This document shows positions 30,605-64,000 of a stretch of 64,000 nucleotides of DNA, piece after piece. The notes beneath the pieces were generated by a model. It worked only from the letters and a program-made list of their open reading frames with translations. It had not been told where the DNA came from and did not search any database. How positions within the stretch are numbered: the first letter of the stretch is position 1; the number at the start of each line of letters is the position of its first letter. This DNA comes from Oscillospiraceae bacterium (GTDB lineage: Bacteria > Bacillota > Clostridia > Oscillospirales > UBA929): assembly GCA_009782215.1 (NCBI GenBank), contig WRKO01000002.1:1-64000 (forward strand), given 5' to 3'. The position numbers and the translations under genes were made by a program.

Positions 30605-30633
30605 TTGACAAACGCCGCCGTGTGTGGTATACT
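30605..30633 (+). promoter_or_regulatory. Sigma-A promoter of the argGH-fum-malic enzyme operon
   Basis: TTGACA (30605-30610), 17-base spacer, TATACT (30628-30633). A leader of about 115 bases follows. It contains hairpins GATAAA/TTTATC and CGGCAA/TTGCCG with a T6 run at 30701-30706, so attenuation is possible but not clear. Confidence 0.8.
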
Positions 30634-30756
30634 GATTCACGATAAACAAAGGCGTTTATCGGCAATCGGCTTTTTGTGGGTTGCCGGTGGGCGCTTTTTT
30701 GCGGGGCGTGCGCGCGTATGGGCGGGGGCGTCCGGCGGGAAGGGGAGGCATTTGGC

Positions 30757-31965
30757 ATGGAAAACATTGTGCTGGCGTATTCCGGCGGTCTGGACACGAC
30801 CGTCATCATCCCGTGGCTGAAGGAAAACCGCGCGGGGTGCAAGGTCACCGCCTGCTGCGTGGATGTGGGGCAATGCGGAGACTACGCGGCCATCCAGCAA
30901 AAGGCGGTGAAAACCGGCGCCGACGTGGCGTATGTCGTCAACGCGCGGGACGAGTTCGCGGCTGATTTTATCGTTCCGATGATCAAAGCAAACGCCGTGT
31001 ATGAGGGCAAATATCTGCTCGGCACCGCCTTGGCCAGACCGTTAATCGCGAAGAAGCTGATCGACGTCGCCCTCGCGGACGGCGCGTCGGCCATCTGCCA
31101 CGGCGCCACGGGCAAAGGCAACGACCAGCTCCGTTTTGAGCTGACCATCAAAGCGTTCGCCCCGTGGCTGAAAATCATCGCCCCGTGGCGGCTTTGGGAC
31201 ATCAAGTCCCGCGAGGACGCGATGGAATACCTGCAAAAGCGCGGGATGGAAGCGCCGGCGGCCAAAAATCAAAGCTACAGCCGCGACCAAAACCTATGGC
31301 ATTTGAGCCACGAAGGCTTAGAGCTTGAAGACCCCGCCGAGGAGCCGGATTACAGGCGCCTATTGCAAATATCCGTCCCCCCCGAGGACGCGCCCGATAC
31401 GCCGGAATACATAGAGCTGACCTTCGAGAAAGGCGTCCCGGTCAAGCTGGACGGAGAAAGCATGGCCCCCGCCGCGCTGATCGAAAGGCTCAATGAAATC
31501 GGGGGCAGAAACGGCGTCGGGATTGCCGACATGGTGGAAAACCGGGTGGTCGGGATGAAATCGCGCGGCGTATACGAAACCCCCGGCGGGTCGATTGTCT
31601 GCGCGGCGCACCGGGAGCTGGAGAGTCTGTGCCTTGACAGGCAGACGGCGGCGTTCAAGGCGTTCGCGGGGCAAAGGCTGGCGGAGCTGATTTACGCGGG
31701 CGAATGGTATACGCCCCTGCGGGAGGCGCTGTCGGTTTTTGTCGACGCGACGCAGGAGACGGTCACCGGGTCGTCGCGGCTCAAGCTGTATAAGGGAAAC
31801 ATCGTCCCGGCGGGCGCCGCGTCGCCCTATTCGCTGTACAATCAAGCCCTTTCCGGCTTCGCGACCGGCGATTTGTTCGACCACAAGGACGCGGAAGGGT
31901 TTATCAATCTGTCCGGGCTGCCGATGACCGTGAGGGCCTTGATGAAAAAGGAGCGGGGACTATGA
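30757..31965 (+). CDS. argG: Argininosuccinate synthase
   Basis: ArgG joins citrulline and aspartate using ATP, the penultimate step of arginine synthesis. The 402-residue protein has the PP-loop [29 protein letters not shown], and [21 protein letters not shown] 30757 is selected because AGGGGAGG lies upstream and the strand AYSGGLDT follows at once, as in the family. It overlaps argH by four bases. Confidence 0.97.
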
Positions 31966-36444: not shown

Positions 36445-38535
36445 CTATATCACGCTGTAGAGCAGCTCGGCGTAGCGCGGGAGCGGCCAGTGCTTTCTTG
36501 CCACGAGGGTTTCCAGCTCGTCCACAATCAGGCGCAGCTCCGACATGGCCGAATAGATGCTGTCGCGGTAATACTGCGCCTGAGCGAGGATTTCCCGTTC
36601 CTCCTTCGTCTCCAAAAGCGTGTCTTCAAGGATATTCAGCTTTTTCAGCAGACAGGAGGACAGCTTGGATATCTGCCCCAGCAAATGCTCCTCAAGCGAG
36701 ACGCTGTATTCTCCGCAGGCGGTTTTCTTTTTCAAAAGCCCGGCCACCTCGCTCTGATAGCCGATACACGCCGGAATAATCTCGCCCCTGACCAAATCCA
36801 CCATCGTCAGGGCTTCGATATGGAGCGCCTTGCAATAGCCCTCAAAGAGAATCTCGTAACGCGAATGAATCTCGGCCTCGGAAAAGACGTTGTGCTTGGT
36901 AAAGAGGTCGATGCTCTTTTTCGAGATAAACTCCGGCAGCGCGTCCACGGTGGTTTTTAGGTTGGACAAGCCGCGCCGCCCGGCCTCCGCCACCCACTCA
37001 GCGGCGTAGTTGTTGCCGTTGAACACAATTCGCTTGTGCGCGCTGAAGGTTTGTCTCACAAGCCCCGCCAGAGCGGAGGTGAAGTCCTTCGCCCCCTCCA
37101 GCTCGTCGGCAAACCGGCGCAGCGACTCCGCAACCGCCGTGTTCAGCACGATATTCGGCCCCGCGATGGAAAACGCCGAGCCGAGCATCCGAAACTCAAA
37201 CTTATTGCCGGTAAACGCGAACGGCGAGGTGCGGTTGCGGTCGGTCGTGTCCTTGGGGAAATGCGGCAGAACGGTCACGCCGATTTCCATCTGGTTTTTT
37301 TCGTTGTTCTGATAATCCGTCCCGGCCTCAAGCGCCTCCAAAATCTCTGTCAACTCGTCCCCGAGGAACATCGACACGATGGCGGGCGGCGCTTCGTTGG
37401 CGCCCAGCCTGTGGTCGTTGCCCGCGCTGGCGGCGGAAACGCGCAGCAAGTCCTGATAGTCGTCCACCGCCTTGATGACGGCGACCAAGAAAAGCAGAAA
37501 CTGCGCGTTTTCAAACGGTGTCTCACCCGGCTCAAGCAGATTGCCGCCCTTGTCGGTGGACATCGACCAGTTGTTGTGCTTCCCGCTCCCGTTGACGCCG
37601 GCAAACGGTTTTTCATGCAGCAGGCAGGCCATTCCATGCCTGTTGGCGACGCTTTTCATCAGCTCCATCGTGAGCTGGTTGTGGTCGGTGGCAATGTTGG
37701 TGGTGGTAAAAATCGGCGCGAGCTCGTGCTGGGCCGGGGCCACCTCGTTGTGCTTTGTCTTGGCGTATACGCCCAGCCTCCAAAGCTCCTCCTCCAAGTC
37801 CTTCATAAAGGCGGACACCCTTGGCTTCAGGCTTCCGAAGTAGTGGTCGTCCAGCTCCTGACCCTTGGGCGGGCGCGCGCCGAACAGCGTCCTGCCGGTA
37901 TAGACCAAGTCGGGGCGTTTTAAGAACATATCCTTGTCAATCAGAAAGTATTCCTGCTCCGGCCCCACCGTCGCCGTCACGCGTGAAACGCGCTCGTTGC
38001 CGAACAGCCGGAGGATGCGCCGCGCCTGATTGTCCAGCGCTTCCATCGAGCGGAGCAGGGGCGTCTTTTTGTCCAGCGCCTCGCCGCTGTAGGAGCAGAA
38101 CGCGGTGGGGATGCACAGCGTCCCATCCTTGATGAAGGCGTACGACGTCGTATCCCAGACGGTGTAGCCCCGCGCCTCAAAGGTGGCGCGCAGCCCCCCG
38201 GACGGGAAGCTGGACGCGTCCGGCTCCCCCCGCACAAGCTCCTTGCCCGAAAACTCCATGATGACATGACCGTCCCCGGTCGGAGAGATGAAGCTGTCGT
38301 GCTTCTCGGCCGTGATGCCGGTCATGGGCTGGAACCAATGGGTAAAGTGCGTCGCGCCTTTTTCCACAGCCCACGCCTTCATAGCGTTGGCGACGACATT
38401 GGCGACGTCAAGCTCCAAATGCGTGCCTTGCGACATGGTCTTTTTCAAAGCCTTGTAGACGTCCTTGGGCAGCCGCTCCCGCATGAGCGCGTCGCTGAAC
38501 ACCATGTTCGCGAACAGTTCGGGGATGTTTTTCAT
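36445..38535 (-). CDS. glnN: Glutamine synthetase type III
   Basis: GSIII makes glutamine from glutamate, ammonia and ATP as large dodecamers unlike GSI. The 696-residue length and motifs are those of the type: [90 protein letters not shown] lies before the ATG. It is downstream of the Amt-PII fusion gene on the same strand, separated by 80 bases that hold a strong hairpin, and makes the glutamine that the large gene cluster further upstream on this strand consumes. Confidence 0.96.
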
Positions 38536-38614: not shown

Positions 38615-40333
38615 CTATTCGTCTCCGGGCGCGGCGTCCTGCAAGGCGTCATAGCCCTCCTCGCCGGTACGCACCTTGACGACGTTCTCCACGTCATAAA
38701 CGAAGATTTTTCCGTCGCCGATATGGCCTGTATACAAAACGCCCTTGATGGCTTGAAGCAGTGTTTCCACAGGCACCTTGCTGATAACGACGTCGATTTG
38801 AATCTTCGGGAGCAGCGGGGCGGCCAGCGGCACGCCGCGGTATGTATGCGTATGCCCGCGCTGCACGCCGTAGCCCAGCACATTGGTCACGGTGATGCCG
38901 GTGATGCCGATTTGGTCGAAGGCGTTTTTCAGCGCGTCAAACATTCTCGGCTTGGTGATAACGGTCACCTTGGTCAGCTTTTTGCCGGTGGATACGTCGG
39001 TGACGGGAATGGCCCTCTCCGGCGGCGCCGGAACGGGCGGAGCGTCCGCGCCCGTATGGGTCAGCACATTCAAATCCGGGTTGTCAACCGGCAGGAAGTC
39101 GGCGTAGCTGCTGGCTTCCATGCCGTGTTCGGTCGCGTCAAGCCCGCGTATTTCATCCTCCGCCGACGCGCGCAGTCCAATCGTTTTCTTGATGCCCGCG
39201 AAGAGGAGCAGCGTCGTCACGGCAGTCCAGCAAAAAATCGCCAGCACGCCAAGCGCCTGAATGCCGAGCAGCTCCGCGCCGCCGCCGTAAAACAGGCCGG
39301 TCACATCTGAAATCACGTCGTCCCCCGCCGCAATCGGCCTCGCAAACAGCCCCACCGCCAGCGTGCCCCATATCCCGCAGACGCCGTGTACCGCCACCGC
39401 GCCCACCGGGTCGTCCACATGGAGCTTCAAATCAATAAACTCAACCGCCAAAACAATCAGCACCCCCGCAACCGCCCCAATGATCATCGCGCCCAGCGCG
39501 TCCACATTCGAGGTGCCGGCGGTGATCCCCACAAGCCCGCCCAGCGCGCCGTTGAGGGTCATGGATACGTCCGGCTTGCCGTTTTTCAGCCATGTAAGCG
39601 TCATGGTCGCCACGGCGGCCGCCGCCGGGGCAAGCGTCGTTGTCAGGAAAATCGAGCCTAGCTGGGGAAGATTTTCGGCCGCCGCGCCGTTGAACCCATA
39701 CCAGCCGAACCACAGGATGAAGCAGCCGAGCGCCCCCAAGGTCAGGGAATGGCCGGGAATCGCGCGGGAAACCTTTTTGCCGGTCTTTTGGTCGACCGTA
39801 TACTTGCCGATGCGCGGGCCGAGAACCGCCGCGCCAACGAACGCCGTCACGCCGCCCACCATGTGGATGGCCGAGGAGCCGGCGAAATCCACATAGCCCA
39901 TCTGCGCCAGCCAGCCCTCTCCGTTCCAAACCCACCCCGCCGAAATCGGATAGATGAGCGCGCTGATAAACACGCTGTAGAGGATGTAAGAGCTGAATTT
40001 TGTGCGCTCCGCCATAGCGCCGGACACAATCGTCGCGGCGGTCGCGCAGAACACGAGGTTGAACACGAAGTCCGAGAAGTCAAAGGCCGCGAAGGAGGTG
40101 AAAATATCGAAGCTGGGTACGCCTATCAGCCCTCCGATATAGTTGCCGGACGCGAGAAGCTGGTAGCCGAGCAAAACAAACACGATTGTTCCGCACGCAA
40201 AGTCCATCAGGTTCTTCATAATGATATTCGCGGCGTTCTTCGCGCGGGTAAACCCCGCCTCTACCATCGTGAAGCCGCTCTGCATAAAAAACACCAAGCC
40301 TGCCGCAAGCAAAAACCAAATGCCGAAATCCAT
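38615..40333 (-). CDS. Ammonium transporter fused to a PII signal protein
   Basis: Residues 1-425 or so form an Amt channel: WFLLAAGLVFFMQSGFTMVE, GGVTAFVGAAVLGPRIG, GWYGFNGAA and the conserved pore region. The C-terminal part from about residue 455 is a PII domain (KLTKVTVITKPRMFDALKNA), with T-loop sequence YGVQRGHTHTYRGVPLAAPL and the closing HIGDGKIFVYDVENVVKVRT. Normally a separate PII protein plugs the channel when glutamine is high; here it is tethered. The loop has no Tyr at the usual uridylylation site. ATG 40333 follows GGTGGG. Transcription starts at 40496-40524 and passes an attenuator. Confidence 0.93.
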   Translation of the reverse strand: MDFGIWFLLAAGLVFFMQSGFTMVEAGFTRAKNAANIIMKNLMDFACGTIVFVLLGYQLLASGNYIGGLIGVPSFDIFTSFAAFDFSDFVFNLVFCATAATIVSGAMAERTKFSSYILYSVFISALIYPISAGWVWNGEGWLAQMGYVDFAGSSAIHMVGGVTAFVGAAVLGPRIGKYTVDQKTGKKVSRAIPGHSLTLGALGCFILWFGWYGFNGAAAENLPQLGSIFLTTTLAPAAAAVATMTLTWLKNGKPDVSMTLNGALGGLVGITAGTSNVDALGAMIIGAVAGVLIVLAVEFIDLKLHVDDPVGAVAVHGVCGIWGTLAVGLFARPIAAGDDVISDVTGLFYGGGAELLGIQALGVLAIFCWTAVTTLLLFAGIKKTIGLRASAEDEIRGLDATEHGMEASSYADFLPVDNPDLNVLTHTGADAPPVPAPPERAIPVTDVSTGKKLTKVTVITKPRMFDALKNAFDQIGITGITVTNVLGYGVQRGHTHTYRGVPLAAPLLPKIQIDVVISKVPVETLLQAIKGVLYTGHIGDGKIFVYDVENVVKVRTGEEGYDALQDAAPGDE

Positions 40334-40444
40334 TTTTCCCACCCTTTCCAAAAAAGTAACGTGTGCTTCCCCGCCGTCGGCCGGCGGAAAGGCGCACGTC
40401 ATTGTACGCGCAGCGGCCTCGGCCCCCCGGAAGAGCCAAAACAC

Positions 40445-40485
40445 AAAAAGCGCCGCGGACATTCAGTCCGCAGCGCCCTTGCTGC
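40445..40485 (-). terminator. Attenuator in the amt-PII leader
   Basis: On the minus strand an 11-pair stem (40466-40476 with 40450-40460, one G-U) with loop TGAAT is followed by TTTTTGTGTTTT, a classical terminator, only about 20 bases after the predicted transcript start. An upstream hairpin GCAGC-AAGGGC-GCTGC (40470-40485) shares bases with the terminator stem and would prevent it. Its six-base loop has A at position 1 and G at position 4, as in hairpins bound by ANTAR antiterminators, but the usual second hairpin is not seen. Confidence 0.7.
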
Positions 40486-40495
40486 TTATGCACAT

Positions 40496-40524
40496 ATTAT
40501 AGCACGCGCCGAATTCCCTGTCAA
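40496..40524 (-). promoter_or_regulatory. Sigma-A promoter of amt-PII
   Basis: Consensus TTGACA (40519-40524), 17-base spacer, TATAAT (40496-40501) on the minus strand. Confidence 0.9.
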
Positions 40525-40581: not shown

Positions 40582-41268
40582 TTACGGTTTTGAGAAATAG
40601 AAATGTTCAGGGGCGGGGCCTTGCACCCAACTGTTTTCGCCCACGATGATGACGTAACTGCCATCAACACTGTTGCGTTCGGAAGTCCAGTCGGCACTTT
40701 CCTTGGTCGGCGGCAGGAAATTGGCCGATAGCCATCGTGGTATATCCATATTAAACCCAGCATACATCGCCATACTATCAAGAAAACCAACGTTGCCCAC
40801 GAAGTTGCCGCTTCCATGATTCACAATATTGGATCCCCATCCTTCTCCAGATGACTGCGGAATATCGGTGCCGGGCCAGACGGCTTTGGTGACCCATTGC
40901 ACGGGTTCGCCTGACGCGTCATAAGAAACCAAGTGATAAATTTTTTCACCGTCCGGCGAAAAAGCCTCCGGGTCATGTAGGATGAGATAATCGTCTGTTA
41001 TGGGATTGAAGTACTCGGCATCGCCGGGATTTTCCGGGAAGCCGTCCGGCATGGGGATGGTGCCGTAGATTGTGCCGGGGTCTGGGTCGCCTGTTCCGGG
41101 GTCATTGCCGCCGTTACCCTGCGCCCCGTTCGGTGACGGCGTGGACGGTTCGGGCGCGGACGGCGTTTCCGATGGCGGCGGGGAGTTGTTGCCGCTATCA
41201 GAGCAAGCGGCTAATGTGAATGCCATTATCAGCGCAATGGCGAGTGCGAAGATTTTTGTTGTTTTCAT
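40582..41268 (-). CDS. Lipoprotein with unassigned mature domain (family copy 1)
   Basis: The 228-residue protein has a lipoprotein signal (KIFALAIALIMAFTLAAC, lipobox LAAC) and a Pro/Ser/Gly-rich linker (SETPSAPEPSTPSPNGAQGN), then a mature part of about 160 residues with no motif I recognise. It is expected to sit on the outer face of the membrane. ATG 41268 is chosen because GGTAGGAG lies about 10 bases upstream; an ATG nine bases earlier touches that site. It is the last of four lipoprotein genes, and its signal and linker are nearly identical at DNA level to those of the next gene. Confidence 0.75.
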   Translation of the reverse strand: MKTTKIFALAIALIMAFTLAACSDSGNNSPPPSETPSAPEPSTPSPNGAQGNGGNDPGTGDPDPGTIYGTIPMPDGFPENPGDAEYFNPITDDYLILHDPEAFSPDGEKIYHLVSYDASGEPVQWVTKAVWPGTDIPQSSGEGWGSNIVNHGSGNFVGNVGFLDSMAMYAGFNMDIPRWLSANFLPPTKESADWTSERNSVDGSYVIIVGENSWVQGPAPEHFYFSKP

Positions 41269-41281
41269 GGTTGCCATTCTC
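41096..41281. repeat. Direct repeat copy A: signal peptide and linker of lipoprotein genes
   Basis: This stretch and 42136-42342 are almost identical, including the linker-coding part and the signal-peptide part. A small difference lies between them where the second copy has extra Asn/Gly/Ser/Thr codons. The similarity ends abruptly where the mature domains begin. Confidence 0.8.
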
Positions 41282-41321
41282 CTACCTTTTATGATTGCGC
41301 GGGTTCTTTCTTGTGCTGATA

Positions 41322-42329
41322 TTAGCTTACAAACTCATAACTCCCATACCATAGCGTATATGACGCCGTCCTCACCCCGTTGCGGGTTGTGCCTTCATAG
41401 CTGTCTTGACCGGGGAGGATGCGGATTGTCACCGTCCCCGCTTCCCCGTCTTTCAGCACCCCGGCGTGTACCGCCGCCATAGCGATGTTGGAATCATCGG
41501 TATATATGTCACTGCCCCAAACTTGACCGGAGGTCGTGCCGACGACATAAAACTCATGGGTCGTGTCATTTTTGCCGCGCAAATGCTCGGCGGTGCCCGT
41601 ATAGGCAGTTGGATCCGTGGCACCTGCGCTATTGCCGCCCGGAGCGGGCGCGGCATTGCCGCTCGGCTCGGGGAGAAAATAAAGCATCCCCTCCGTGTCC
41701 TTTGCCCGGCTGATTATATCCGCTTTCCTTTCCATGGGGGGAGGCTCCGGCCAAGCGAAGGGCATACCATAAACGACGTTATCCACGACCGTAAACCCGC
41801 TGACATTATTCTCGGCATAGGCGTCGACAGCCTCGTTAGCCGCCTCATTGCTGGGGAATACTGTTTTATACATACGACGCCCAGCAACATCCGCCCCCTC
41901 GATATAACGGAAGGTGACGAGGCTGTAAATTGTCACATCACTGTTCGTGACATAATCGGTACGTTCCTCCATAATAACGACATAGTTTTCGCCCACCTCA
42001 GGTAATAACATATCGTCCCATTCCGCCGTGAAAAAATACTGCGGGTCGCCCCGGTGGCTTTCCATCGGCCACACCACATATGGCGCCGGGCCAAGGTCTT
42101 GAACGTCGCTGCCGTCATTAAATATGCCGCCCGCGCCGGGGTCATTGCCGCCGTTACCCTGCGCCCCGTTCGGTGCCGGCGCGGACGGTTCGGGCGCGGA
42201 CGGCGTTTCCGATGGCGGCGGTGTGTTGGTACTGCCGCCCGAATTGTTGTTGTTGCTATCCGAGCAAGCGGCTAACGCGAAACCCATAATCAGCGCAATG
42301 GCGAGCGCGAGGATTTTTGTTGTTTTCAT
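41322..42329 (-). CDS. Lipoprotein with C-terminal LCCL domain (family copy 2)
   Basis: The 335-residue protein has a lipoprotein signal (KILALAIALIMGFALAAC), an Asn/Gly/Pro-rich linker, a middle domain of about 130 residues of unknown type, and a C-terminal LCCL-like domain. The LCCL part is recognised by VWGSDIYTDDSNIAMAAVHA, LKDGEAGTVTIRILPGQDSY and NGVRTASYTLWYGSYEF. LCCL domains are known from secreted eukaryotic and some bacterial proteins and are thought to bind ligands or lipids. Third gene of the lipoprotein operon. Confidence 0.8.
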   Translation of the reverse strand: MKTTKILALAIALIMGFALAACSDSNNNNSGGSTNTPPPSETPSAPEPSAPAPNGAQGNGGNDPGAGGIFNDGSDVQDLGPAPYVVWPMESHRGDPQYFFTAEWDDMLLPEVGENYVVIMEERTDYVTNSDVTIYSLVTFRYIEGADVAGRRMYKTVFPSNEAANEAVDAYAENNVSGFTVVDNVVYGMPFAWPEPPPMERKADIISRAKDTEGMLYFLPEPSGNAAPAPGGNSAGATDPTAYTGTAEHLRGKNDTTHEFYVVGTTSGQVWGSDIYTDDSNIAMAAVHAGVLKDGEAGTVTIRILPGQDSYEGTTRNGVRTASYTLWYGSYEFVS

Positions 42330-42342
42330 GGTTGCCATTCTC
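42136..42342. repeat. Direct repeat copy B: signal peptide and linker of lipoprotein genes
   Basis: Partner of 41096-41281. The two copies lie about 1 kb apart in the same orientation, so recombination between them would remove one mature domain or join a leader to another domain. Confidence 0.8.
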
Positions 42343-42356
42343 CCTATTTAATTATT

Positions 42357-44045
42357 TTAATTCCATTCGTAAACGGGAATCACGCCTCCGCTGCCGTCGG
42401 CGCGTATGCGGTAGATATTGTTGTTAAAATAATTGAACACCCAGTCCCCCGCCACGTTTAGGGTATCTGGATTCATCATGTCGCCCACGCGCATAAGACC
42501 TGTGCCGTCGGTTTTTATGCGATGCAGCGTCCGCTGCCAGTCGTCTGGGTCAAGCCGAAGACCAAAATACAAGTAATCACCGTCAACTATATAGGCCTCT
42601 CCGCCACGGGTATCGTCCATAACTACTGATGTTTCTTTGGTGTTTACGTTGACTCTGCAGATACCCATAATGTTCGGTTCAAAATAATAAACCCAATCGC
42701 CGGACTGTAGGAGATTGTAGATATACATGTTATCTTCGAGTTCTAAAATCACCTCAGTGGCTGCTCCATCGTTGCGTGTACGGATAATTTCGTGTTTGGA
42801 AGTGAGCAGATGGTCGGAGCCGGGGACGGGCACCCATTCCGTTTGTATATGATAGTTCCAGTCGCTGTCGATGTTCAGCCGATAGCTGTCTATGTCGGTT
42901 ACTTGCATATCACCTGTGCCATCGGCGGCGCGGACGCGGTTCAAGTTTGTTATACTTCTGCCGCCGAAGTCTCCGCCGTCATCATAATACGCTGTTGTGA
43001 TATAGTAAAGCCACTCGCCGACAATCAAAAAGCTGCCTATGCTGCCTCCCTCTCCATAGTCTAGGGGCCGCTCAAACAATATAGTGAGCTCGGATTCGTC
43101 GCTTTTTAGTCGGTAAATGCGATCAACTTCCATATAGCCTTCATCCGTGCTGAGATTGTGCCGAGAGTGGATGTATATATAATCGCCGACGACATTAATC
43201 GCGGTAGCGGGAAAGTCGAGGATGATTTTTTCCACATCCGTGCCGTCTAAGCGCATTTTGTACAGTTCGTACCGCGCAACATAGTAAATCCAGTCGCCGC
43301 CTAACGCGACATAACGGTTGCCGTTGATGTTGCCGCGCTCATGCTCGGCGATGGTGACAGGGGTGAGAGGTAAGATTTGCCGCTTGGGTACTAAATGAAC
43401 AGGCGCGGGGAAAGACGGCATATCATCCTTAAACTCAAAGTTTACACCCTCGCCCCAGTAGAAGGTATTACTGCGGATAGGCACGCCGTTTACCGTCATC
43501 TCGAAATAATACTCGGCAAGCGGCTGATCGAAAAGCTCACCCGATGCGGAGCTGACAGAGTAATAATATACAGTCACCATGCCTTCGTCGCCGGGGACAT
43601 TGTCGAGATGGAAGCTTACTTTCCGTGATAGGTCGTGTTCCACGATCGAGCCATGGTCAAAGCTCATATATTCGTTCAGTTCCTGACGTACGCCATTGAT
43701 GTAAAAGGCAAAGTCGCTGATTTCAGGACGGCGGAAGTCCTCTTTAGTTTCACCGTCAAAAATTAAACTTACGCCGCCTACACTGTGGATTTCACTGACT
43801 TCAACACTGAATCCGTCGCTAGAACTGCTAAATGCGACATTGACTTGGGCATATATCAGCTCGCCGCCGGGAGGCGGCCAAGTGTCGCCGCCGCTTATGC
43901 TTGCATCGCCGGAACTGCCGTTGCCGTCCCGACCTGAGCCGCTCCCCGAATTGCCGCCCGAATTGTTGTTGCTATCGGAGCAAGCCGCTAATGTGAAAAC
44001 CATGAGCAGCGCAAGGGCAAGCGCGAAGATTTTTGTTGTTTTCAT
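42357..44045 (-). CDS. Lipoprotein with DUF5050-type beta-propeller (family copy 3)
   Basis: The 562-residue protein has a lipoprotein signal (KIFALALALLMVFTLAAC), a Ser/Gly/Asn linker, a strand-rich domain of about 170 residues, and a C-terminal region of repeats such as VALGGDWIYYVARYELYKMR, NVVGDYIYIHSRHN, LIVGEWLYYITTAYYD and LLQSGDWVYYFEPN. These repeats, with G-D/E-W-I/L/V-Y-Y cores, are typical of DUF5050 propellers found in surface proteins of Clostridia. ATG 44045 is preferred because AGGAGGG abuts the ATG at 44054. Second gene of the lipoprotein operon. Confidence 0.78.
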   Translation of the reverse strand: MKTTKIFALALALLMVFTLAACSDSNNNSGGNSGSGSGRDGNGSSGDASISGGDTWPPPGGELIYAQVNVAFSSSSDGFSVEVSEIHSVGGVSLIFDGETKEDFRRPEISDFAFYINGVRQELNEYMSFDHGSIVEHDLSRKVSFHLDNVPGDEGMVTVYYYSVSSASGELFDQPLAEYYFEMTVNGVPIRSNTFYWGEGVNFEFKDDMPSFPAPVHLVPKRQILPLTPVTIAEHERGNINGNRYVALGGDWIYYVARYELYKMRLDGTDVEKIILDFPATAINVVGDYIYIHSRHNLSTDEGYMEVDRIYRLKSDESELTILFERPLDYGEGGSIGSFLIVGEWLYYITTAYYDDGGDFGGRSITNLNRVRAADGTGDMQVTDIDSYRLNIDSDWNYHIQTEWVPVPGSDHLLTSKHEIIRTRNDGAATEVILELEDNMYIYNLLQSGDWVYYFEPNIMGICRVNVNTKETSVVMDDTRGGEAYIVDGDYLYFGLRLDPDDWQRTLHRIKTDGTGLMRVGDMMNPDTLNVAGDWVFNYFNNNIYRIRADGSGGVIPVYEWN

Positions 44046-44067
44046 GTTTATCATCCCTCCTATTACC

Positions 44068-44829
44068 TCATCGGTGCGGTGAAAGAATCCTAACTGAATC
44101 TAAAAGCTCCTCATCGCTGCCATAGAACGAGGAGAACCAGAACTGAACGCGAGTTCCATCCGATTCTGTATGTTGCAAGGCTTTCTTCTGTCCATCTCCG
44201 CCGGACAGCTCGAAGTGACTATAGGCAGCCATCGCATCTTCCAAAGCAGACTGACCAATCACGAGCCGTTCCCCGACAACAGCCCCGGCAGCGTACATAG
44301 AGATTGCCCAATATTCGCAGACAACCATCTTATCCTCGCTCGCGTCAAGCGGTCTGGGCCAAGCTCCGGGCGCGTGGACATCCTCCAGAAAAACATCAAT
44401 TTTAATAAATTCCTCTTCTGTCTCTAAAAACATTTCACCGCCCGGTCCATAATCGGTCAATATATCGTAGTCGGGAGACCGATTGATATCATTAAACACA
44501 AATCCAAAATCGTATAAATCCTGCAATGTGGTGACGCCCAACTCTATACGGATGCCATCGCCGAAGTCAAGGGTATAGTCTTTCGCGTATGGTCTATTAT
44601 TTTGCACAACTACATCGCCGCCGCCGTTTCCGGGGTCATCGCCGCCGTTGCCCGGGTCGGGGTCTTGAGGCGGCGCGGACGGTTCAGGTGCGGGGTCTTG
44701 CGACGGTGACGGATTGCTTGAGCTGCCGCCCGAATTGTTGCCGCCGCTATCAGAGCAAGCGGCTAATGCGAAACCCATGATCAGCGCGAAAGCGAGTACG
44801 AGTGCGAGTTGTTTTGTCAGATTTTTCAT
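44068..44829 (-). CDS. Lipoprotein with unassigned mature domain (family copy 4)
   Basis: The 253-residue protein has a lipoprotein signal (LALVLAFALIMGFALAAC), an Asn/Gly/Ser/Pro linker, then a mature domain of about 170 residues starting near RPYAKDYTLDFGDGIRIELG that I cannot place. GGAGGG precedes the ATG. It is the first gene after the promoter at 44860-44889 and heads the operon of four. The signal is related to, but more diverged than, the other three. Confidence 0.75.
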   Translation of the reverse strand: MKNLTKQLALVLAFALIMGFALAACSDSGGNNSGGSSSNPSPSQDPAPEPSAPPQDPDPGNGGDDPGNGGGDVVVQNNRPYAKDYTLDFGDGIRIELGVTTLQDLYDFGFVFNDINRSPDYDILTDYGPGGEMFLETEEEFIKIDVFLEDVHAPGAWPRPLDASEDKMVVCEYWAISMYAAGAVVGERLVIGQSALEDAMAAYSHFELSGGDGQKKALQHTESDGTRVQFWFSSFYGSDEELLDSVRILSPHR

Positions 44830-63920: not shown

Positions 63921-63931
<11 letters not shown>

Positions 63932-64000
63932 AGGTTTTCAGTATTCCTTCCGCAATCACCCGTTTTGTGGCGCGCATATCCATCGCCTGTTTTTCGATGT
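63921..64000 (-). CDS. 3' end of an upstream cluster gene (partial, unidentified)
   Basis: The minus strand is open from the window edge to TGA at 63921 and encodes a C-terminal tail ending MDMRATKRVIAEGILKTYES. It overlaps purF by 11 bases and must be in the same operon. The 26 visible residues are too few to name the protein. Confidence 0.6.

Follow-up and report, generated by a model that had tools for sequence, protein, structure and literature searches.

Very probably, the leader of the amt-PII gene holds two transcription attenuators in tandem, under the control of the ANTAR protein of its own genome, a NitR-like regulator whose gene adjoins glnA. Sequence evidence firmly establishes the attenuator as a conserved element, and its control by the ANTAR protein is very likely. 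The features of the system in the window, i.e., the whole stretch of 64,000 nucleotides that was analysed, are the following, with the loop of each hairpin in brackets:

40496-40524, minus strand: sigma-70 promoter, TTGACA-17-TATAAT with TG ahead of the -10 box, matching the consensus at 12/12 positions.
40470-40485, minus strand: putative antiterminator hairpin 1, GCAGC[AAGGGC]GCTGC, an A1/G4 hexaloop on a C-G closing pair (sequence, fold, relatives).
40445-40480, minus strand: terminator 1, 15 bp with a T-rich tail (scan, fold, family covariation).
40392-40409, minus strand: putative antiterminator hairpin 2, GCGTAC[AATGAC]GTGCGC, also an A1/G4 hexaloop (sequence, fold, counterpart in locus L024).
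40350-40401, minus strand: terminator 2, then TTTTTT (40355-40350), adjoining a Shine-Dalgarno-like stretch (sequence, fold).
38615-40333, minus strand: amt-PII fusion gene, an ammonium transporter with a P-II domain (Pfam PF00909, PF00543).
36445-38535, minus strand: glnN, type III glutamine synthetase, the next gene 3' of amt-PII (Pfam GSIII_N).
30605-30702, plus strand: second copy of the unit, TTGACA-17-TATACT, CGATAAAC[AAAGGC]GTTTATCG and a terminator with a T-tract (model R2, E 6.6e-8 over the whole genome).
30757-31965, plus strand: argG, the first gene past the second copy, with its start codon chosen by hand (Pfam PF00764/PF20979).
63921-64000, minus strand: 3' end of the ANTAR gene, which adjoins glnA type I and runs to contig position 64490 (profile search, Pfam).

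The promoter and the intrinsic terminator of the initial annotation are both borne out in the amt-PII leader, where TTGACA begins at 40524 and TATAAT finishes at 40496 of the minus strand in the promoter scan, and a 15-bp stem with a T-tract follows. The spacing of the promoter places the probable +1 near 40489, from which the terminator stem opens about 10 nt downstream, rather than the roughly 20 bases first proposed, with its T-tract at about +41 to +48. The competing hairpin with a six-base loop carrying A1 and G4 was also found as described: it starts some 5 nt into the predicted transcript, its 5-bp stem recurs in relatives, and its loop and 3' arm double as the 5' arm of terminator 1, the two folds being mutually exclusive. 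The view that only one such hairpin fits did not hold, as hairpin 2 overlaps the 5' arm of terminator 2 in the same mutually exclusive manner, which makes the leader, as far as can be read from its letters, two attenuators in series.

In folding, the predicted RNA from +1 to +48 reaches -28.2 kcal/mol and terminator 2 reaches -28.8 kcal/mol, each with 0/200 shuffles equally good, while hairpin 1 alone reaches -7.3 kcal/mol (7/200 shuffles equally good) and hairpin 2 reaches -7.9 kcal/mol (10/200). Hairpin 1 is unremarkable by itself and owes its significance to its conservation. Similarly, the number of terminator-like sites between 38000 and 41500 is not above chance (three, the longest of which is terminator 1, against a shuffle mean of 4.1), and two promoters occur there against 1.4 in the shuffles; since terminator-like sites are no more frequent than expected in the simple scan, it is the parts in combination that carry the case. 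The Rfam search of the window returned above the gathering score only a tmRNA and one tRNA, with the attenuator unmatched. Beside amt, four adjacent ORFs (40582-44829, minus strand) have similar lipoprotein-like beginnings that close with LAACSDS and lead into Pro/Gly-rich stretches; they seem to form a family of predicted lipoproteins arranged in tandem.

In the mechanism proposed, transcription would begin about 5 nt before hairpin 1 and, as long as the ANTAR protein is inactive or absent, the emerging transcript would fold into terminator 1 and stop near +48, while the polymerases that escape it would reach terminator 2 near +140. When nitrogen is limiting, a condition taken from NitR, a NitR-like ANTAR dimer would capture the 5' hairpin as the RNA emerges from the polymerase, presumably by binding its A1/G4 hexaloop, and the stabilised hairpin would then block the 5' arm of the terminator and allow read-through. 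The outcome would be the production of amt-PII and probably of glnN, if the two form an operon as their arrangement suggests. The same switch may operate before argG and, in a weaker form, before the cluster of GOGAT-like, glnA and ANTAR genes.

The comparison of amt leaders among relatives, which the initial annotation had proposed, found the design of hairpin and terminator to be conserved. It was present in 38/98 amt and glnN leaders from the genome itself and its relatives, against 31/980 dinucleotide-shuffled leaders; one of the 38 (L209) looks spurious, and the 60 leaders without the element include second-in-operon genes and second gene copies. Two distinct elements were found in eight of the 38 and a single one in the other 30.

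For the first covariance model, R1, 18 elements were picked by hand and the terminator was the sole structure given; L044 and L042 had been dropped from the first seed alignment for terminators out of register. R1 matched 51/57 relatives because plain terminators fit it as well, and a second model with the promoter included, R2, took its place. R2 comprises 42 (alignment A3) of 53 promoter-linked units and holds only the pairs of the terminator, with zero hairpin pairs; the 11 units left out were near-duplicates, had very long loops or odd loop or -35 letters, or came from genomes without ANTAR. The seeds were chosen for a hairpin stem of at least 3 pairs, so that the seed hairpin counts partly reflect selection, including the 94.3% of cells in which the hairpin 5' arm pairs with columns 57-61 (26-50% for the slid controls). 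Stems of the terminator 1 type show family covariation, while for the seed hairpin three of five covariation measures exceed all 500 shuffles and the other two are not above them, being reached by 324 and 470 of 500.

The held-out set consisted of 68 R2 matches in 55 loci, with no seed genomes and some of the same genera as the seeds; L274, from a genome without ANTAR (G095), was kept out of it and examined separately. A1 and G4 are present in 68/68 of these matches, the closing C-G pair in 66/68, and a stem of at least 4 pairs in 67/67 complete rows, the 68th being cut by the end of its locus, while only 32% remained paired when the 3' arms were swapped among rows. At least 4 pairs were found in 28/30 matches of the phylum sample (24 loci), and at least 3 in 30/30. 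Near 80 amt genes of named records there were 55 R2 matches (E<=0.01) in 42 loci, with at least 4 pairs in 45, at least 3 in 54, A1 in 51 and G4 in 54. Among the matched loci, L347 and L360 come from Butyrivibrio isolates, and L315 and L328 from bins that carry the label Treponema or Spirochaetaceae. Genes for amt-PII of similar type lie on contigs of bins with these latter labels (L298, L300, L315, L328).

It might be argued that the hairpin is a by-product of plain promoter-proximal terminators, which combine an A-rich base with a GC stem. The loop letters AAAGGC do also pair with the terminator 3' arm, which means that part of their conservation is that of the terminator, and the two covariation measures that do not rise above the shuffles would fit such an origin. 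The 5' arm of the hairpin, however, lies outside the terminator and yet pairs in the seeds far beyond the slid controls, and the matches that were not selected for a hairpin form its stem in every complete row, against about a third with exchanged arms, which leaves this explanation scarcely credible.

The genome search for an ANTAR-domain regulator, also proposed at the outset, found one protein of 189 aa, with an ANTAR domain above the Pfam cut-off (E 3.1e-14) and a receiver-like part that scores below it. Its gene comes after glnA, a glmS-like gene and a GXGXG (GOGAT-like) gene, and before carA and a glutamine amidotransferase gene that we take to be purF. The ANTAR gene adjoins glnA in 15/20 loci of relatives, besides its own genome. 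The NitR gene is linked to glnA, and the likeness to NitR is drawn here from the description of that protein and this linkage.

In the alignment, Asn replaces the phospho-accepting Asp of the receiver, and among 19 readable rows including its own the site is Asn in 14, Cys in one and Asp in four, with L009 and L022 left out of the tally as their translations begin too far in. Given that this residue is Asn here and in most rows, phosphorylation is an unlikely signal, and the degenerate receiver suggests control by a partner protein or a ligand; glutamine synthetase would be a candidate partner, a guess made from gene adjacency only. Regarding RNA recognition, 11 residues of EutV are listed as RNA contacts in the structural report (PMC8934654). 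With numbering assigned from the alignment, four are identical in the protein studied here (Lys149, Glu160, Met172, Arg175) and three are similar (Lys143, Lys147 and Asn173 become Arg, Arg and Asp), while Arg142, Tyr164, Arg168 and Arg177 become Ile, His, Glu and Thr, the His being as in AmiR.

The suggestion of an ANTAR target gained support from the co-occurrence of element and protein. In a sample of 197 genomes of the order, R2 matched at E<=1e-6 in 84/113 genomes with ANTAR and in 3/84 without (Fisher 2.6e-26, a value that, like the others given below, treats genomes as independent although they are related), with 29/113 ANTAR-bearing genomes lacking a strong element at that threshold. 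The association holds within one family and one genus; within the genome's own family, a match at E<=1e-3 was found in 7/7 genomes with ANTAR and in 0/7 without. In the phylum sample, 31/33 genomes with a match at E<=1e-5 have ANTAR, against a background of 202/398 (Fisher 4.8e-8). As 171/202 of the ANTAR-bearing genomes in that sample have no match at E<=1e-5, many ANTAR proteins presumably do other things.

At least 32/113 genomes also have the element no more than 13 kb upstream of the ANTAR gene, in the same orientation, where about 0.5 would be expected by chance, the copy in the genome studied here being counted in from a separate whole-genome search. In L393 the element adjoins the ANTAR gene, with a stem of just 3 bp.

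A part of this co-occurrence reflects shared gene content, given that amt was found only in relatives with ANTAR (27/36 against 0/21). For glnN, which both groups keep, the element is present in 22/55 leaders of genomes with ANTAR and 0/13 of genomes without (Fisher 0.006), the latter count leaving out L183 and L186, from two genomes without ANTAR (G033, G054), in which the closing pair differs. These two loci (L183:253-353 and L186:285-385, minus strand) carry a perfect promoter, GTGCA[AATGAC or AGTGAC]TGCAC and a long terminator, a look-alike divergent from glnN.

Matches in genomes without ANTAR number three at E<=1e-6 (G027, G032, G095) and seven at E<=1e-5, and of four that were examined the hairpin is retained in G032, G095 and G020, and not in G027. 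The element of G095 is intact and that of G032 has a weak T-tract; the genome of G020 is 55% complete. In the glnN leader of G027, an 85% complete genome in which no ANTAR was found (L217, G027:C16:43395-43474, minus strand), promoter and terminator are intact and the closing pair of the hairpin is lost.

The retention of the hairpin in three genomes without ANTAR, and the restriction of amt to relatives that have it, are what would be expected if another RNA-binding protein or a small molecule stabilised the 5' hairpin and the link to ANTAR reflected shared ancestry or gene content. This is nevertheless quite unlikely, as what is conserved at the core matches the ANTAR hexaloop precisely, in its loop letters and its closing pair, the co-occurrence persists within one family, within one genus and for glnN, and the alignments of the element present no further conserved stretch of aptamer size beyond the hairpin and the terminator. 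A direct-sensing riboswitch was rejected for this last reason, and direct sensing or another RNA-binding protein, initially considered equally open, can no longer be placed on a par with control by the ANTAR protein.

If the ANTAR protein does act on this element, its targets are mostly genes of nitrogen assimilation and of glutamine-amide metabolism. In the genome itself, R2 gave four matches at E<1e-3, namely amt-PII, argG, the leader of the GOGAT/glnA/ANTAR cluster and an Lrp/AsnC gene. The argG copy is followed by argG and argH (Pfam PF00206/PF14698). Directly upstream of it lies a tmRNA gene (Rfam RF00023, 30146-30495 of the window, plus strand).

The copy of the ANTAR cluster lies 11,974 nt upstream of the ANTAR gene and has the hairpin TGAAC[AAAGAC]GTTCA and a weak T-tract; since the gene order points to one transcript for this cluster, the regulator probably activates its own operon. 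The Lrp/AsnC copy is weaker, with one mismatch within the hairpin. A second glnN (75% identical; G000:C7:29816-31888, minus strand) lies downstream of the Lrp/AsnC gene and an aminotransferase-like ORF, the degenerate element being in the leader of these two. An exact-pattern search of the genome (AANGRCG and a terminator core) returned seven places against two for the reversed control, none of them one of the four named elements, which were missed because G-U pairs and bulges were disallowed.

Among relatives, the first downstream gene resembles glnN, GOGAT, amt, asnA or glnA in 57/68 held-out and 24/30 phylum matches, as judged by BLAST against the genome's own or earlier proteins, and 11 of the unrecognised proteins were put to Pfam. 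The latter search identified glutamate dehydrogenase, a purF-like amidotransferase, adenylosuccinate synthetase, CTP synthase, an asparagine synthase, an ANTAR protein, a transporter subunit, an ATP-grasp protein, an M20 peptidase and a GNAT protein. Seed elements also precede genes for an M14 carboxypeptidase, diaminopimelate epimerase, a C26 peptidase and a PPDK-like protein. In four loci of genus g2, of the genome's own family (L080, L088, L096, L098), the element precedes similar predicted secreted proteins, that of L096 being a zinc carboxypeptidase (M14); such targets are unexpected in a nitrogen regulon and perhaps serve the use of peptide nitrogen.

The geometry of the element sets it apart from ANTAR targets described so far. 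Between the -10 box and the loop there are 15 nt in the amt-PII leader and 11-19 nt in 68/68 held-out matches (14-16 nt in 56). About 7 nt separate a -10 box from +1, and with such distances there is no transcribed room for an upstream P1 hairpin. No P1-like A1/G4 hairpin was found within 20 nt upstream of hairpin 2 either, and the same is true of 10 of the 12 tandem or between-gene copies. The remaining two (L038, L134) have a 3-bp A-T hairpin with A1 and G4, 4 nt upstream. A thirteenth row, for L110, fell on the promoter-linked copy and is not counted. Lone hexaloops are the rule in this group.

In EutV, by comparison, antitermination requires both P1 and P2 hexaloop hairpins with a short linker (PMC3369931, PMC8934654), which measures 5-12 nt in eut; activity dropped drastically with a 14-nt linker in vivo (PMC3369931), and the effect was abolished by adding 20 nt in vitro (PMC8934654). 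Hairpins 1 and 2 of the amt-PII leader might be regarded as just such a P1 and P2 acting across terminator 1, as there are two A1/G4 hexaloops here and in seven other leaders, and the A-T hairpins of L038 and L134 would just reach the three pairs published as the minimum for a hexaloop stem (PMC3369931). This is very unlikely, given that some 60 nt separate the two hairpins, where EutV tolerates only short linkers, that each overlaps its own terminator, and that most of the leaders with the element, as well as most of the tandem or between-gene copies, have nothing to serve as a partner.

Returning to the single hexaloop captured by the ANTAR protein, a broader reading is slightly favoured, namely that ANTAR attenuators without P1 control the nitrogen regulon of many Clostridia. 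Each would have a 5'-terminal hexaloop and a terminator at about +48, with capture within some 10-15 nt of transcription and without a recruitment hairpin, by an ANTAR protein that is encoded next to glnA and whose receiver is dead. Glutamine synthetase may hold this protein while glutamine is abundant, and the protein would also control its own GOGAT-glnA operon. The lone hairpin, which the initial annotation had seen as weakening the case for ANTAR, turns out to be the interesting feature. A set of single-hexaloop attenuators makes directly testable the question raised by the EutV work, in which both hexaloops are needed, against the structure, in which the binding unit is one; many uncultured Clostridia, several recorded as coming from gut or rumen, also gain a concrete nitrogen regulon.

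Antitermination through a hexaloop recognised by ANTAR proteins is already known, and the new part would be the single-hexaloop, 5'-terminal mechanism. In EutV/eut, NasR/nasF and AmiR/amiE, as here, the A1/G4 hexaloop overlaps the 5' arm of the terminator, and nitrogen genes are among the predicted targets, those for ammonium transporters and P-II being examples (Ramesh et al. 2012, PMC3369931). Those systems, however, have two hexaloops, both of which are needed (PMC3369931), whereas here there is one per terminator, about 5 nt from the predicted start. Known ANTAR biochemistry would therefore predict failure here, because EutV needs the dual hexaloop and a P1 cannot fit.

NitR of Clostridium saccharobutylicum is described in a review as an ANTAR antiterminator that induces GS/GOGAT genes (PMC6316151), and here too an ANTAR protein would be tied to nitrogen assimilation via antitermination. 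Beyond the GS/GOGAT genes of NitR, the candidate targets here extend to amt-PII, argG, asnA, CTP synthase, purF-like, purA and glutamate dehydrogenase genes. While a regulator of the EutV type is activated by phosphorylation of the receiver Asp, the protein studied here has Asn in that position.

A further link is to the structural work on EutV and its RNA (Walshe et al. 2022, PMC8934654), the only paper on point in a literature survey on single-hexaloop ANTAR targets, which is a weak negative, as most subscription papers fell outside its scope. In that work, the ANTAR dimer is unable to hold both hexaloops simultaneously, P1 is proposed to be a recruitment hairpin, and the role of single hexaloops is said to need study, with bioinformatic work being called for. 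One hexaloop is there the minimal ANTAR motif, and the same binding unit is proposed here. Lone sites were expected by those authors where the transcribing polymerase sets no time limit (PMC8934654), whereas the lone hexaloops described here lie on the terminators of nascent transcripts, where capture would have to keep pace with the polymerase.
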